This document shows, one piece after another, positions 20,301-27,231 of a stretch of 64,000 nt of DNA. Each line of letters opens with the position of its first letter. Within the stretch, counting starts at the first letter, position 1. The notes below the pieces were generated by a model. It saw nothing but the letters and a program-made list of their open reading frames with translations, searched no databases and was not told the DNA's origin. Source of the stretch: Jeongeupia sp. HS-3 (GTDB lineage Bacteria; Pseudomonadota; Gammaproteobacteria; Burkholderiales; Chitinibacteraceae); the NCBI RefSeq assembly GCF_015140455.1, contig NZ_AP024094.1:1116001-1180000 (forward strand). Direction: 5' to 3'. Both the position numbers and the translations under genes were made by a program.

Positions 20301-22114
20301 TGCTGCGCTCGACCGCAGTCAAGCTCGTCGCCGCATTCGATCACCGGCATATATTCATTGATCCGAACCCGGATCCCGCACTGTCGTACAAGGAACGCGA
20401 GCGGCTATTCACCCTGCCCCGCTCCAGCTGGGCAGATTACGATGCGAAACTGATCTCGCGGGGTGGCGGGCTGTGGCCGCGCAACGCCAAGACGATTCCG
20501 CTCTCTGCCGAGATGAAAGCGCTACTGCAGGTCGAGGACGACGAGCTCGAACCGAACCTGCTGATCCAGGCCATTCTCAAGGCGCCGGTCGATCTGCTTT
20601 ACAACGGTGGCATCGGCACCTATGTAAAGGCGAGCACGCAAACGCACGCCGAAGCCAATGATCGCGGCAGCGATGCGGTGCGCGTTGACGGGCGCGAGCT
20701 GCGCTGCAAAGTGGTCGGCGAAGGCGGCAATCTGGGCTTTACCCAGCTGGGGCGCATCGAATACGGCCTGTCTGGCGGGCGGATATTCACCGATGCGATC
20801 GACAACTCGGCCGGCGTCGATTGCTCCGATCATGAAGTCAATATCAAGATTTTCCTCAATCGCATCGTCGCCAGCGGCGACATGACGCTAAAACAGCGCA
20901 ACCAGCTCCTTGCCGAAATGACCGACGAGGTAGGCCATCTGGTACTGGAAGACAACCGGCTGCAAACACAGGCGATTTCGCTCGAACGGATGCAGGCCCC
21001 CTCCTTGCTGCCGGTACACCAGCGCTTCATGCAGGCCATGGAACATCAGGGCAAGCTGTCGCGCCGGCTGGAATACCTGCCGAGCGACAGTCTGCTGATC
21101 GAGCGACAACAAGCCAAGCTGGGTTTGACCCGACCGGAACTGGCGGTACTGCTGGCCTATGCCAAGATCGTTCTCAAACAGCAACTGCTCACCAGTCAAC
21201 TGCCAGACGATGCGCGCTGGAACACGCTGCTCACCGCGTACTTCCCGAGTGCGCTGGTGGCGCGCTACGGCGATCGCGTCGCCGAACATCCGCTGCGCCG
21301 CGAAATCGTCGCCACCTTGCTGACCAACCATGTAGTCAACCGCTACGGCATCAGCTGCGTCTTCCGCCTGGCCGAAGAGGTAGAACGCCCAGCCGATGCA
21401 GTGGTCGCGGCGCTGATCGATGCGCAGCAATTGCTGGGTATCGAAGCGCTGACCAAGGAAATCGAATCCGCTCAGGGCATGTCGATTACCGAGCAATACG
21501 AGCTGCTGTCGTCGGTGCGTCGGCAAACCGAGCGCGTCGCGCGCTGGCTGTTGCAGCACCCGCTCAACCCTGCGGAACTCGAACATCTCGGCACCTGCGC
21601 CGAACTGTGCCTGCCCAGACTGCCGGAATGGCTGGCCGAAAGCGGCGATGTCCAGGCGCGCCGGGAAATCTGGCTCAACGCAGGCGTGCCGGGCGCGCTG
21701 GCCAACAAGGTATTGGCGGTCGAACACGCGATGCCGTTTATCGAGCTGGCGCGCAGTGCCGGCGACACCGATACGCTGGCCGAGCGCATGAAGCTCTTTC
21801 TCGCCCTTGGGCAGACGCTGGAACTCGACTGGCTGGTTACCGCGATCGAAAAGCTGCCGCGCGACAATCGCTGGCAGACGCTGGCCCGCCTGGCTGCACG
21901 CGACGATTTGCAGCGCTTGCACGCCACGCTCACCGAACGGATCTGGCTGCGCCCGCAAGATGATGCCGATGCCAAGCTTGTCGCCTGGCAAGCCGACGTA
22001 TCCGGGCCTTTGGGGCAATGGCTGCGCATGCTCGGCGAGCTGCGCGAAAGCCAGCCGGATCTGGCGATGATCTCGGCGGCGCAGCGCGAGCTGCGTGGCA
22101 GACTGATCACCTGA
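17369..22114 (+). CDS. gdhB: NAD-specific glutamate dehydrogenase, large (about 180 kDa) class
   Basis: This catabolic enzyme oxidises glutamate to 2-oxoglutarate and ammonia with NAD+. From ATG 17369 the product has 1581 residues, matching the roughly 1600-residue bacterial GDH class; in-frame ATG 17351 is an alternative, while the farther TTG at 17186 would add low-complexity residues with no support. The N-terminal 700 residues are the large regulatory region with ACT-like repeats. The catalytic core starts near 770 (GGLRWSDRREDFRTEVLGL) and has the substrate lysine K833 in VGSKGGF, followed by the Rossmann region around VVGEGGNLG. The C-terminal helical region runs to the end. It is monocistronic with its own terminator. 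Confidence 0.95.
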   Translation: MTFSVPRPQLDALSQAREPLGDNVKSLFARYYANLPSEDFDARDAENWVGAALSHWRFGARRAPGELLLRADNPTLIEHGWECKHTVIELVADDMPFLVDTVSMAINRLGYGVHLVVHPVLHVQRDAAGQVVDLGDDGPRESWMHFEIDRITRPEALAELDEEIRRVLNVLSVAVADWPKMTEHIDATLAQLHSAPPPVAATELSETVAYLEWLRDDHFIFLGCRDYRINEEHGDGNMWITPGSGLGMLRDDGVGGPSRTWASLTPELRQIAYRPDTLLILTKADTRSVVHRPVYLDMICLKQIDAGGKVVGELRILGLYTASAYSTPSRQIPILRDKIARAITLSGADVEGHRGKALLNVLDTYPREELIETDVEALSRIASGIVGLQERNRTRVFFREDIYHRYISAMLYVPRDNYTTEVRVKVQQLLIDRLGGDGGEFNVLLSDSPLARIHFITHIPHGAHPQYDARAIEAEIAEIALRWPDELRRQLLMHGGEEQGAVRYQRYANAFSAAYCADYPPRVAVHDIDALETALETGELATAIVPGSQADTRLWRLKLYRNTPIELSDCLPLLENLGVRVQDERPYKLSFSDNAAAWIIDIGIQLPQSGMLENPQARSRLLDAFEAVFAGRSENDTFNRLVLQAGLAWRDVLVLRAYARYLKQIGLHFSQDTLAATLLRFPLQAGQLVELFHALLQPSASNTHEAEALGKTLAKFATDQPNADDEKMLSQFRAAIEATVRTNFWQQNAAGNPKPYVSFKIASAQIPDMPQPVPLFEIFVYANDMEGVHLRGGKVARGGLRWSDRREDFRTEVLGLVKAQIVKNTVIVPVGSKGGFIVKNPPTEREAFLAKGVECYQTLIRGMLDITDNLVNGKLVPPPNVTRRDEDDPYLVVAADKGTATFSDTANALSQEYGFWLDDAFASGGSVGYDHKKMGITARGAWVSVERHFREMGINVATDPITIAGIGDMSGDVFGNGLLRSTAVKLVAAFDHRHIFIDPNPDPALSYKERERLFTLPRSSWADYDAKLISRGGGLWPRNAKTIPLSAEMKALLQVEDDELEPNLLIQAILKAPVDLLYNGGIGTYVKASTQTHAEANDRGSDAVRVDGRELRCKVVGEGGNLGFTQLGRIEYGLSGGRIFTDAIDNSAGVDCSDHEVNIKIFLNRIVASGDMTLKQRNQLLAEMTDEVGHLVLEDNRLQTQAISLERMQAPSLLPVHQRFMQAMEHQGKLSRRLEYLPSDSLLIERQQAKLGLTRPELAVLLAYAKIVLKQQLLTSQLPDDARWNTLLTAYFPSALVARYGDRVAEHPLRREIVATLLTNHVVNRYGISCVFRLAEEVERPADAVVAALIDAQQLLGIEALTKEIESAQGMSITEQYELLSSVRRQTERVARWLLQHPLNPAELEHLGTCAELCLPRLPEWLAESGDVQARREIWLNAGVPGALANKVLAVEHAMPFIELARSAGDTDTLAERMKLFLALGQTLELDWLVTAIEKLPRDNRWQTLARLAARDDLQRLHATLTERIWLRPQDDADAKLVAWQADVSGPLGQWLRMLGELRESQPDLAMISAAQRELRGRLIT

Positions 22115-22129
22115 AGACCTTGATGGCGT

Positions 22130-22161
22130 AAAAAAGCGGCGTAGCGATACGCCGCTTTTTT
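22130..22161 (+). terminator. Rho-independent terminator after gdhB
   Basis: The stem AAGCGGCGTA/TACGCCGCTT is flanked by A-run and six T. Confidence 0.9.
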
Positions 22162-22267
22162 CTGGCCACGCCCTTGGCAAATTGGCCCCAACCGGACGTC
22201 AAGCATTACCCCGATCCGGCTTGGCAATCCGGTATAATGCGCGGTTTTCCGACCGACATAGACCGTG

Positions 22268-23371
22268 ATGGAAGCCGAACAGCTCAACCAGATCGACAAT
22301 CACCTCGCAGACTTGGCCAACCGCGCCGAGGAGCTGAAACGTTATCTTGACTACCCGGGTAAACGTGACCGGCTCGAGGAGGTTGTCCGCCTCTCCGAAG
22401 ACCCGGACATCTGGAACGACCAGAAGAAAGCCCAGGATATCGGCCGCGAACGCAAAGCACTCGAAGATGTCGTTGTCGTGCTCGACGATGTCGCCAATGG
22501 CGCCGCCGATGCCAAGGAGTTGTTCGACATGGCGCGCGGCGAAAGCGATTTCGACACCTGCGCCGCGATCAATGACGACGCACAGGCGCTCGAAACCAAA
22601 ATCGCCAAGCTCGAATTCCGCCGGATGTTCAGCAATCCGATGGATCCGAACGCCTGCTTTATCGACATCCAGTCGGGCGCGGGCGGCACCGAGGCTCAGG
22701 ACTGGGCCGGCATGCTGCTGCGGATGTATATCCGCTACGGCGAGCGCAAGGGCTTCAATGTCGAAGTGATGGAAGTGTCCGACGGCGAAGTCGCCGGCAT
22801 CACCAGCGCAACGATCAAGCTCACCGGCGAATACGCCTATGGCTTCTTGCGCACCGAAACCGGCGTGCATCGCCTGGTGCGGGTGTCGCCGTTCGATTCG
22901 AACGCTCGCCGCCACACCTCGTTCTGCTCGGTCTTCGTTTACCCGGAAGTCGATGACAGCTTTGAGATCGAGATCAATCCGGCCGACGTGCGTACCGATA
23001 CCTATCGCGCCTCGGGCGCTGGTGGTCAGCACATCAACAAGACCGACTCGGCCGTTCGCCTGACCCACGCGCCGACCGGCATTGTCGTGCAGTGCCAGAA
23101 CGATCGTTCGCAGCACCGCAACCGCGACGAAGCCTGGTCGATGCTGCGCGCCAAGCTGTACGAGCTTGAACTGCGCAAGCGCATGGAAGCGCAGCAATCG
23201 CTGGAAGCCGGCAAGGCCGATATCGGCTGGGGCCACCAGATTCGCTCCTACGTGTTCGACCAGAGCCGAATCAAGGATCTGCGCACCAGCTATGAAGTCG
23301 GCAACCTCAAGGGCGTGATGGATGGTGACCTCGATGGCTTTATCGAGGCCAGCCTGAAGCAAGGCGTCTAA
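22268..23371 (+). CDS. prfB: Peptide chain release factor 2, without programmed frameshift
   Basis: RF2 recognises UAA and UGA stop codons and triggers release of the peptide. The 367-residue product is full length, with the SPF tripeptide (in VRVSPFDSN) that reads the stop codon and GGQ at 252-254 that catalyses release. In many bacteria the gene is interrupted by an in-frame UGA near codon 26, bypassed by a +1 shift at CTTTGA. Here that spot reads TAT CTT GAC TAC, one T shorter, so the frame is continuous. The start could be GTG 22265 or ATG 22268; the ATG gives the usual N-terminus. A hairpin with a short T-run separates it from lysS, the usual neighbour. Confidence 0.96.
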
Positions 23372-23385
23372 GTTTGTGATTTGAC

Positions 23386-23411
23386 CGGAGCAGGCCACCC
23401 TGCTCCGTTTT
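23386..23411 (+). terminator. Hairpin with short T-run between prfB and lysS
   Basis: The stem CGGAGCAGG/CCTGCTCCG is followed by TTTTGC. Readthrough into lysS (start 20 bases later) is likely, since no separate lysS promoter fits in the remaining gap. Confidence 0.65.
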
Positions 23412-23430
23412 GCATCTGATGGAACCTAGA

Positions 23431-24933
23431 ATGAGCGAACAGCAAGCAGTCCCGCAGGACGAAAACCAGATCATGGCCGAGCGTCGCGCCAAGCTTGGCG
23501 CATTGCGCGAACAAGGCCCGGCCTTCCCGAACGATTTCAAACGCGAACATTTGTCCGGCGATCTGCACGCCAAGTACGGCGAAATCGAGAAAGAAGAGCT
23601 CGAAGCACAGAATATTTCGGTCAGCGTTGCCGGCCGCATGATGCTCAAGCGCGTCATGGGCAAGGCGAGCTTTGCCACGGTGCAAGACGTTGCAGGCCGC
23701 ATCCAGTTCTACGTCAGCCGCGACAGCGTCGGCGAAGACGTCTACGCCGCATTCAAGAAATGGGACCTGGGTGACATCATCGCCGCCCGCGGCACGCTGA
23801 TGAAAACCAAGACCGGCGAGCTATCGGTGCAAGTCACCGAACTGCGCCTCTTGACCAAGAGCCTGCGGCCGCTGCCAAGCGATTATTACGGCCTGGCCGA
23901 CCAGGAGCTGAAGTACCGCCAGCGCTATGTTGACCTGATCATCAACGAACAAAGCCGCACCACCTTCATCAACCGCTCGCGCATTGTGCAAAAAATCCGC
24001 GAATACATGGTGAACGAGTCCTACCTCGAAGTCGAAACGCCGATGATGCACCCGATTCCGGGCGGCGCCACGGCCAAGCCGTTCACGACGCATCACAATG
24101 CACTCGATATGCCGCTGTTCCTGCGCGTGGCGCCGGAGCTGTACCTGAAGCGTCTGGTCGTCGGCGGCATCGAACGTGTGTTCGAAGTGAACCGCAACTT
24201 CCGCAACGAAGGGATGAGCACGCGCCACAATCCCGAATTCACGATGATGGAGTTCTACGAGGCCTACGCCGACTACCAGCGCATGATGGACATAACCGAA
24301 GGCGTCATCCGTTACGCGGCCAAGGAAGTCATCGGCCATACCGTGATCGAGTACCAGGGCAAGCCGGTTGATCTATCCAAGCCGTTTGCGCGCTTCACCA
24401 TCGCCGGCGCCATCCAGCGCTACAACCCGCAATACACCGCCGAGCAACTGCACGACCGCGCCTTCCTCAAGGCCGAGCTGGCCCGTCTGGGCGCCAAGCC
24501 GGTACTGACCGACGGCATCGGCGGCCTGCAGCTGTCGCTGTTCGATGAAACCACCGAAGAAAAGCTCTGGGAGCCAACCTTCATCATCGATTACCCGGCC
24601 GAAGTATCGCCACTGGCACGCGCCAACGATAACGATGCAGGCATTACCGAACGCTTCGAGTTGTTCATGGTGGGCCGCGAGCACGCCAATGGTTACTCGG
24701 AGTTGAACGACCCGGAAGACCAGGCAGCGCGCTTCCAGGCACAAGTTGACCTGAAAGACCGGGGTGACGACGAAGCCATGCATTTCGACGCCGATTACAT
24801 CCGTGCGCTCGAGTATGGCCTGCCACCGACCGGCGGCTGCGGCATTGGCATTGACCGTCTGGTCATGCTGCTAACCAATGCGCCAAGCATTCGCGATGTG
24901 ATTTTGTTCCCGCAAATGCGCCGCGAAGATTGA
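23431..24933 (+). CDS. lysS: Lysyl-tRNA synthetase, class II
   Basis: LysS charges tRNA-Lys. The product from ATG 23431 has 500 residues, typical of the class II enzyme. An N-terminal OB-fold for anticodon binding (about 55-165) precedes the catalytic domain with motif 2 ([20 protein letters not shown]) and motif 3 ([14 protein letters not shown]). The upstream TTG at 23410 lies inside the preceding hairpin and is rejected. The pairing prfB-lysS is widely conserved. Confidence 0.97.
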
Positions 24934-26787: not shown

Positions 26788-26818
26788 AAAAAAAATGCCC
26801 TCGGTATGTGAGGGCATT
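26788..26818 (-). terminator. Rho-independent terminator downstream of the sdaA remnant
   Basis: The stem AATGCCCTC/GAGGGCATT is followed on the minus strand by eight T. It sits 22 bases after the stop of the sdaA remnant, which explains a minus-strand terminator in an otherwise gene-free gap. Confidence 0.85.
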
Positions 26819-26840
26819 CAAACCAAGCACAAAACTTAAA

Positions 26841-27109
26841 TCAATACATCGACATACCTACAACCAATGCAAGCCCAACAGAAAAGGATTTTTCGCATTT
26901 GTTCTGTATATCCATGCCGGCGCGGCACATCACTTCGACGACCGAATCGAGACTCACTTTGTGATGTCCATCTTCAATGATCGGCAATTGTGCACAATTG
27001 ATCGATTTTTCCGGTGCAACGCCATTACGCTCGACGCACGGATTTGCACCAAACCATCGAGCAAATCACCGCACAGGCAATGCGCCATGACGATCTCGGC
27101 GGCAGAAAA
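26841..27109 (-). pseudogene. sdaA: Decayed 3' end of L-serine dehydratase gene (sdaA remnant)
   Basis: Two minus-strand frames together spell the C-terminal 85 or so residues of L-serine dehydratase, an iron-sulfur enzyme that makes pyruvate and ammonia from serine. The first frame gives AAEIVMAH...GLVQI, matching the family's AAEI.MEH..GLTCDP..GLVQ segment. A one-base loss near 27041 shifts to the second frame, which gives PCVERNGV (family PC.ERN), then HHKVSLDSVVEVM and GMDIQNK..., ending GLAL. Family consensus parts are quoted from memory. There is no start codon and at least 300 N-terminal residues are missing. Key final residues (usual KYKET..GGLA) are degraded to KCEKSFSVGLA. It lies right after a serine transporter gene, the usual partner, and before a terminator. 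Confidence 0.82.
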
Positions 27110-27162
27110 CGCCAAACATGTACTTCTCCGGCCAGGCGGGATATTTCCGAGACGGCGAATGT

Positions 27163-27199
27163 AAAAAACGCAGGCCAGCGCGTGTAGCGCTGGCCTGCG
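27163..27199 (-). terminator. Rho-independent terminator after serine transporter gene
   Basis: A perfect 13-bp stem CGCAGGCCAGCGC/GCGCTGGCCTGCG with a GTGTA loop is followed on the minus strand by six T. It lies 33 bases after the transporter stop and before the sdaA remnant, so the remnant is probably no longer transcribed from the transporter promoter. Confidence 0.9.
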
Positions 27200-27231
27200 T
27201 TCGGCGCGGTTTTTACCTAAACCGGCTTAAC

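Follow-up and report, generated by a model that had tools for sequence, protein, structure and literature searches.

The closest described counterpart of the DNA considered here is the single-chain iron-sulfur L-serine dehydratase SdaA, which is represented by the profile TIGR00720 and by the Legionella enzyme (PDB 4RQO). In the window, by which we mean the whole stretch of 64,000 nucleotides of Jeongeupia sp. HS-3 that was analyzed, the sequence 3' of the transporter gene sdaC aligns with the last part of this single-chain enzyme, in order and up to the native stop, but it would encode no enzyme, with most of the protein deleted and the frame broken. Two known kinds of gene loss invite comparison. 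In xenologous displacement, an old copy has decayed at its native site and a copy of another lineage is intact elsewhere, which is also the situation here; the difference is that the old operon has lost its enzyme gene alone and both transporters are kept, and that the order of events is a presumption from sequence comparison. In the reductive loss of a distal operon gene, the likeness lies in an intact sdaC, a gutted sdaA and a retained operon terminator, whereas the present locus is set apart by a hairpin between sdaC and sdaA that is also found in most of the relatives folded, and because the hairpin separates the genes in those relatives, sdaC may already have been separable before the loss. 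Among the titles and the beginnings of abstracts in the open-licence literature, we found no sdaA or sdaC pseudogene and no horizontal transfer of this sort, and for a terminator between sdaC and sdaB the only work found in that literature concerned the small RNA ArcZ. The case is sound at its core and ordinary in kind, being one of clear gene decay. It presents a well-bounded, half-lost operon in which the transporter is kept and the enzyme is gutted, and both sister species have the operon whole; its interest lies in this clean comparative context and in a candidate leader element.

The sdaA remnant and its decay

The source genome (G000) has 3,398,643 bases in two contigs (3,396,565 and 2,078), and the same-genus genomes G001 and G002 represent its sister species. 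Judged by its alignments, the stretch 3' of sdaC is a pseudogene of sdaA, the gene for iron-sulfur L-serine dehydratase, and was the second gene of a former sdaC-sdaA operon (Table 1). The original prediction had named SdaA on the strength of two minus-strand frames, and both frames are present as described, reading AAEIVMAH...GLVQI and then PCVERNGV...GLALVVGMSMY up to a TGA stop. The assignment to SdaA is borne out by two profiles and by the DNA of the sisters: the last 66 codons (27041-26844) match TIGR00720 (L-serine ammonia-lyase) with an E value of 2.2e-13, covering positions 390-449 of the 450 in the profile, they reach 28.4 bits against PF03313, for which the cut-off is 26.4, and the remnant DNA matches the sdaA end of both same-genus genomes with E values of 2.2e-41 and 4.4e-38. 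A search of the whole genome for the PF03313 family also picks up the remnant site.

Table 1. Positions of the features discussed, in window coordinates unless a genome or locus is named.
Feature	Position	Strand	Basis
sdaC, intact serine/threonine transporter gene (STP family), 411 aa	27232..28467	(-)	TIGR00814 match
Intercistronic terminator-like hairpin, 16-pair stem and T-run	27166..27202	(-)	Hairpin scan
Former sdaA leader, degenerate stem-loop copy ending in GGAG	27126..27156	(-)	Alignment with relatives' leaders
Native start of sdaA (ATG plus codons 2-5), MFGVF; MLSVF in relatives	27105..27119	(-)	Alignment with sisters
Deletion junction (a gap of about 1,085 nt against a 456-aa sdaA)	27104..27105	(-)	Alignment with both sisters
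Remaining sdaA 3' end, codon 367 to native stop, with 6-nt and 1-nt losses; stop 26843-26841	26841..27104	(-)	Profile matches, alignment
Native terminator of the former sdaC-sdaA operon	26793..26819	(-)	Aligned with both sister species' terminators
sdaC2-sdaA2 operon, SdaC2 directly upstream of SdaA2	G000 about 1.9993-2.0022 Mb (L055:4349-7180)		Profile and neighborhood
Leader stem-loops in sdaC-sdaA spacers	L042-L044, L047-L051, L057, L122 (e.g. L043:5348-5368)		Hairpin scan, folds

The loss of a single base that had been proposed near 27041 is placed just before 27041 by alignment with the sister species, and upstream of it there is an additional loss of 6 nt, so that the window has 63 nt from the deletion junction to the PC motif where G001 has 70. 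At the other end, the stop codon and the TTTAAG that follows it are common to the window and both sisters, and the terminator-like site, which indeed begins 22 bases after the stop, lies at the same place in all three. The same prediction held that the enzyme had been lost by deletion, which is supported by the internal gap relative to the sisters, and that the first 300 or more residues were gone and the ending degraded. Of this last claim the deletion stands, and the loss of the 5' end does not, as the earlier reading had overlooked the native start region at 27119-27105 (ATG TTT GGC GTT TTC) and the GGAG ribosome-binding site before it (27129-27126). In the alignment with both sisters, codon 5 is followed at the junction by codon 367, from its third base on. 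As the start region, the stop and the terminator of the native gene all remain, the loss must be an internal one, from about codon 6 to codon 367, which may have come about in one event or several; a 5' truncation of sdaA was dropped as an explanation. The missing length, about 1,085 nt, shifts the frame, and the native frame then stops after 17 codons, 12 of which are in the shifted frame.

The remnant is predicted to encode no functional SdaA enzyme. The three cluster cysteines of SdaA are carried, as we assume, by the GCQGE, LTCDP and PC motifs; the deletion took away the N-terminal domain and the GCQGE cysteine, LTCDP is changed, and the cysteine of the PC motif is out of frame with the native start of the remnant. 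The C-terminal cysteine of the relatives is a tyrosine in the remnant. In a three-taxon split of the last 66 sdaA codons, in which dS is saturated, the branch dN is 0.205 for the window and 0.021 and 0.015 for the sisters, and the branch dN/dS, which is to be read in the light of the short segment as well as the saturated dS, is 0.30 for the window compared with 0.018 and 0.022 for the sisters. About 30 nonsynonymous differences fall within these 66 codons, and the GC3 of the remnant is 0.50 vs 0.74 and 0.68 in the sisters. If the sequence has drifted freely since the loss, about 0.3 of the window's branch would have elapsed after it, a weak estimate given the saturated dS and the short segment.

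The surviving transporter gene and orthologous loci in relatives

The sdaC gene matches TIGR00814 with an E value of 2.7e-112 and 375.7 bits, which does not reach the curated cut-off of that model (525.8), and its product is 92-94% identical to its same-genus orthologues. Pairwise dN/dS against these orthologues is 0.06-0.08, and in the three-taxon split the branch dN/dS of sdaC is 0.072 for the window, compared with 0.046 for G002 and 0.083 for G001. The proposal that the transporter was left under selection holds on these values, and purifying selection on sdaC persists and was not relaxed after the loss of sdaA.

When 61 genomes (60 relatives and the window's own) were searched for SdaC, 21 gave a match, and 14, including the window's genome, have the orthologous type (74-100% identity). 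The sdaC region was compared in the 13 other genomes with an orthologous sdaC, and 12 of them have an intact sdaA of 453-459 aa that lies 12-140 nt 3' of sdaC, which supports the ancestral sdaC-sdaA order that had been put forward. The exception is G023, which has an orthologous sdaC (G023:C1:2655171-2656403) and in whose genome no PF03313 gene was found, leaving a transporter without the iron-sulfur enzyme. In two more family genomes, G061 and G062, the sdaA match begins 116 nt past the sdaC match. In both sisters, sdaC, sdaA and the next gene adjoin, and the block beyond (window 22011-24933) sits elsewhere in G002.

The hairpin between sdaC and the former sdaA

A terminator had been placed at 27163-27199 and taken both to close sdaC and to be a new closure that followed the loss. 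The hairpin is real, though our scan puts it three bases off (Table 1), and it need not be new: the G002 spacer has a hairpin at the same place, with the common string GCGCTACACG, and there it precedes an intact sdaA, so a hairpin between the two genes is older than the loss, at least within the genus. Thirteen spacers were folded, that of the window and those of 12 relatives with an intact sdaA, and in the folds, read by eye, nine of these relatives have an intercistronic hairpin; the spacers of G007 and G036 fold otherwise, and that of G020 is just 12 nt long. A T-rich stretch follows the hairpin in some relatives (G012, G028, G032 and G033). The window hairpin is the strongest scored, at -33.0 kcal/mol, with 13 other spacers at -18.0 or weaker and none in G020, on a score that tolerates no mismatch and fails to pick up the long, imperfect Deefgea hairpins, for which the folds were used. 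The window hairpin may have been strengthened before or after the loss of sdaA, and so strong a hairpin 3' of sdaC would halt many transcripts short of the remnant. The case cautions that a terminator 3' of the gene that survives should not be read as a result of its neighbor's loss.

A second operon, sdaC2-sdaA2

In the rest of the genome, a search for another serine dehydratase found an intact SdaA2 of 451 aa that scores above the TIGR00720 cut-off and belongs to a second operon (Table 1). This operon adjoins a DeoR-type regulator, and on its other side is a gene that we judged by eye to be an iron alcohol dehydrogenase. The site spans 4,197 bp here vs 510 bp in G001, and 4,213 bp vs 533 bp in G002, with both flanks present and close together in the sisters; two short stretches within the G001 gap still align, which puts the extra DNA at about 3.7 kb.

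We built a tree of 45 SdaA sequences, which are a selection among the matches and exclude the remnant, whose lineage was assigned from its position and alignment. In this tree, SdaA2 groups with the 11 other family enzymes linked to sdaC2, which come from three other genera (support 100/98), and it is nearest to nine enzymes of one genus (96/86). The enzymes linked to sdaC1 are in a separate clade of 16 (100/100), to which three enzymes without that linkage also belong. The SdaA2 branch is long (0.55), and no near donor of SdaA2 was found among the genomes searched. Across 43 family genomes, SdaC of the old type was present in 16 and that of the second type, which shares 37-40% identity with the query, in 12, and the window's genome is the only one in which both occur together. 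The other 11 genomes with sdaC2-sdaA2 all lack the old SdaC, and all 11 have a further SdaA match at another place, which is whole-length in nine, in pieces in G019 and split over two frames in G034. The split gene of G034 (G034:C1:901450-902801) is possibly a case of parallel decay or a read error.

The C-terminal cysteine is present in none of the 12 family SdaA enzymes linked to sdaC2 (the SdaA2 clade, L065 and L095-L105), compared with 32 of the 33 other SdaA sequences in the tree. The title of a 2014 paper cited in PMC12647591 describes this residue of the Legionella SdaA as an intrinsic competitive inhibitor. By analogy, the enzyme swap may have replaced a self-inhibited SdaA with one that lacks this brake. 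A third PF03313 gene of the window's genome, at 2.528 Mb, may encode CyuA, a cysteine desulfidase that is a homologue of SdaA (PMC12647591).

Origin of the loss

We consider it very probable that sdaA became a pseudogene through the internal deletion while sdaC was kept, with the second operon presumably having made the enzyme dispensable. The deletion of about 1,085 nt fused codon 5 of sdaA to codon 367 out of frame, the sdaC1-linked sdaA also carries smaller losses and substitutions, and sdaC stayed under purifying selection. The sdaC2-sdaA2 operon was probably gained by insertion at another site and would have relieved the genome of its need for the old enzyme, and the old transporter SdaC may now supply serine to the newcomer, SdaA2. 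The main support for such a takeover is that the sole genome with both types of SdaC is the one in which the sdaC1-linked sdaA is broken. This is a single case, with the second operon in the same genome as the likely cause of the loss. The 11 other genomes with a second operon keep another SdaA, and the arrival of that operon alone is therefore no explanation of the loss; nor does loss of the enzyme need a replacement, as follows from G023 with its sdaC and no PF03313 gene. These same observations, together with the absence of an SdaA match in four of the 43 family genomes, speak for a loss that was independent of the second operon, by ordinary relaxed selection in an environment poor in nutrients, with the second operon either older or present by coincidence. 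We regard this as a possibility, though a lesser one; against it, the broken sdaC1-linked enzyme occurs in the one genome of the family that has SdaC of both types. It is rather unlikely that the genus had the second operon from the outset and the sisters' ancestor lost it, with the old sdaA decaying here from long redundancy: related sdaC2-sdaA2 operons do occur in three other family genera, and the long branch of SdaA2 goes with the lack of any recent donor, but the sisters are without the operon at the syntenic site and have their old operons intact, and a single gain is simpler on the present sampling. The direction and date of the change, probably a gain here rather than a loss in the sisters' ancestor, would rest on three species.

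Two further readings were weighed. The remnant could have been kept for a function, as a short peptide (MFGVF...) or as an RNA or 3' end that stabilizes the sdaC transcript, and the persistence of its start, ribosome-binding site and terminator would fit such a role; we find it highly improbable, given that the frame from the start is so short and mostly shifted, that the body is drifting by dN, dN/dS and GC3 alike, and that the hairpin after sdaC would stop many transcripts before they reach it. The reading that the gene is intact and its lesions are errors of sequencing or assembly was rejected, its likelihood being negligible, for although the loss of a single base is a typical long-read error, the lesions are too numerous, the large gap, the 6-nt loss and the many nonsynonymous differences being no read errors, and the search of the genome gave no intact copy of the sdaC1-linked lineage elsewhere. 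The preferred explanation remains an internal deletion in an enzyme gene that the second operon probably made dispensable.

A leader stem-loop before sdaA

A stem-loop with the loop YGAYC lies just 5' of the sdaA ribosome-binding site in 10 of the 14 intact sdaC-sdaA spacers, a count made up of nine genomes found by the scan and G061, whose hairpin is identical to that of G062. The window has a degenerate copy (Table 1), of which a 3-pair core alone remains in the fold of its spacer. The leaders were aligned in 10 rows, of which nine form the stem, one of them standing for both G061 and G062, and the tenth, G035, does not; G007, G020 and G036, which are without the stem-loop, were left out. 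In this alignment 93.8% of cells are paired, and the covariation is 0.725 compared with a shuffle mean of 0.338 and was reached by none of 500 shuffles, a result favored by the choice of rows partly for forming the stem, of which the fixed position of the stem-loop is independent. In five of the eight stem pairs both partners vary, and 75 of the 500 shuffles do as well by this measure. A covariance model of the stem-loop also picks out, 10 nt upstream of the sdaA match of G013, a hairpin that was not part of its input, with an E value (0.11) that is meaningless alone.

Searched genome-wide, the model is too small, with matches at E values up to 1 in all 43 family genomes, and no regulon for the stem-loop emerged from this search of the family genomes. 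Twelve extra matches were judged by eye, and several lie inside open frames. Two that are as strong as the best sdaA leaders (28.9 bits), at a shared place in G020 and G011, are followed by a T-run on the strand of the model and were set aside as having the look of ordinary terminators. A like stem-loop before sdaC was present in one of 14 upstream regions (G021) and was taken as chance. In a simple hairpin scan (stem of at least 7), the window has four hairpins vs a shuffle mean of 0.8, and chance hairpins are therefore commoner than shuffles suggest.

The leader stem-loop is apparently undescribed: we found no description of it in the open-licence literature or in Rfam, which at gathering thresholds gave no family at the sdaC-sdaA spacers of 14 related loci. 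We give about even chances to the idea that the sdaA leader of the relatives is an undescribed cis-acting RNA, with an 8-bp covarying stem and the YGAYC loop, that would set the translation of SdaA against the output of the transporter, in which case the window would be an instance of its loss, the element having decayed with its gene. The stem-loop is thereby a candidate RNA element for the balance of serine uptake and breakdown. Elsewhere in the same 14 loci, the Rfam matches were one tRNA and two manganese riboswitches; the latter (yybP-ykoY) lie 3' of the sda locus, in one relative at L046:6311-6425 and in another at L049:6241-6356.
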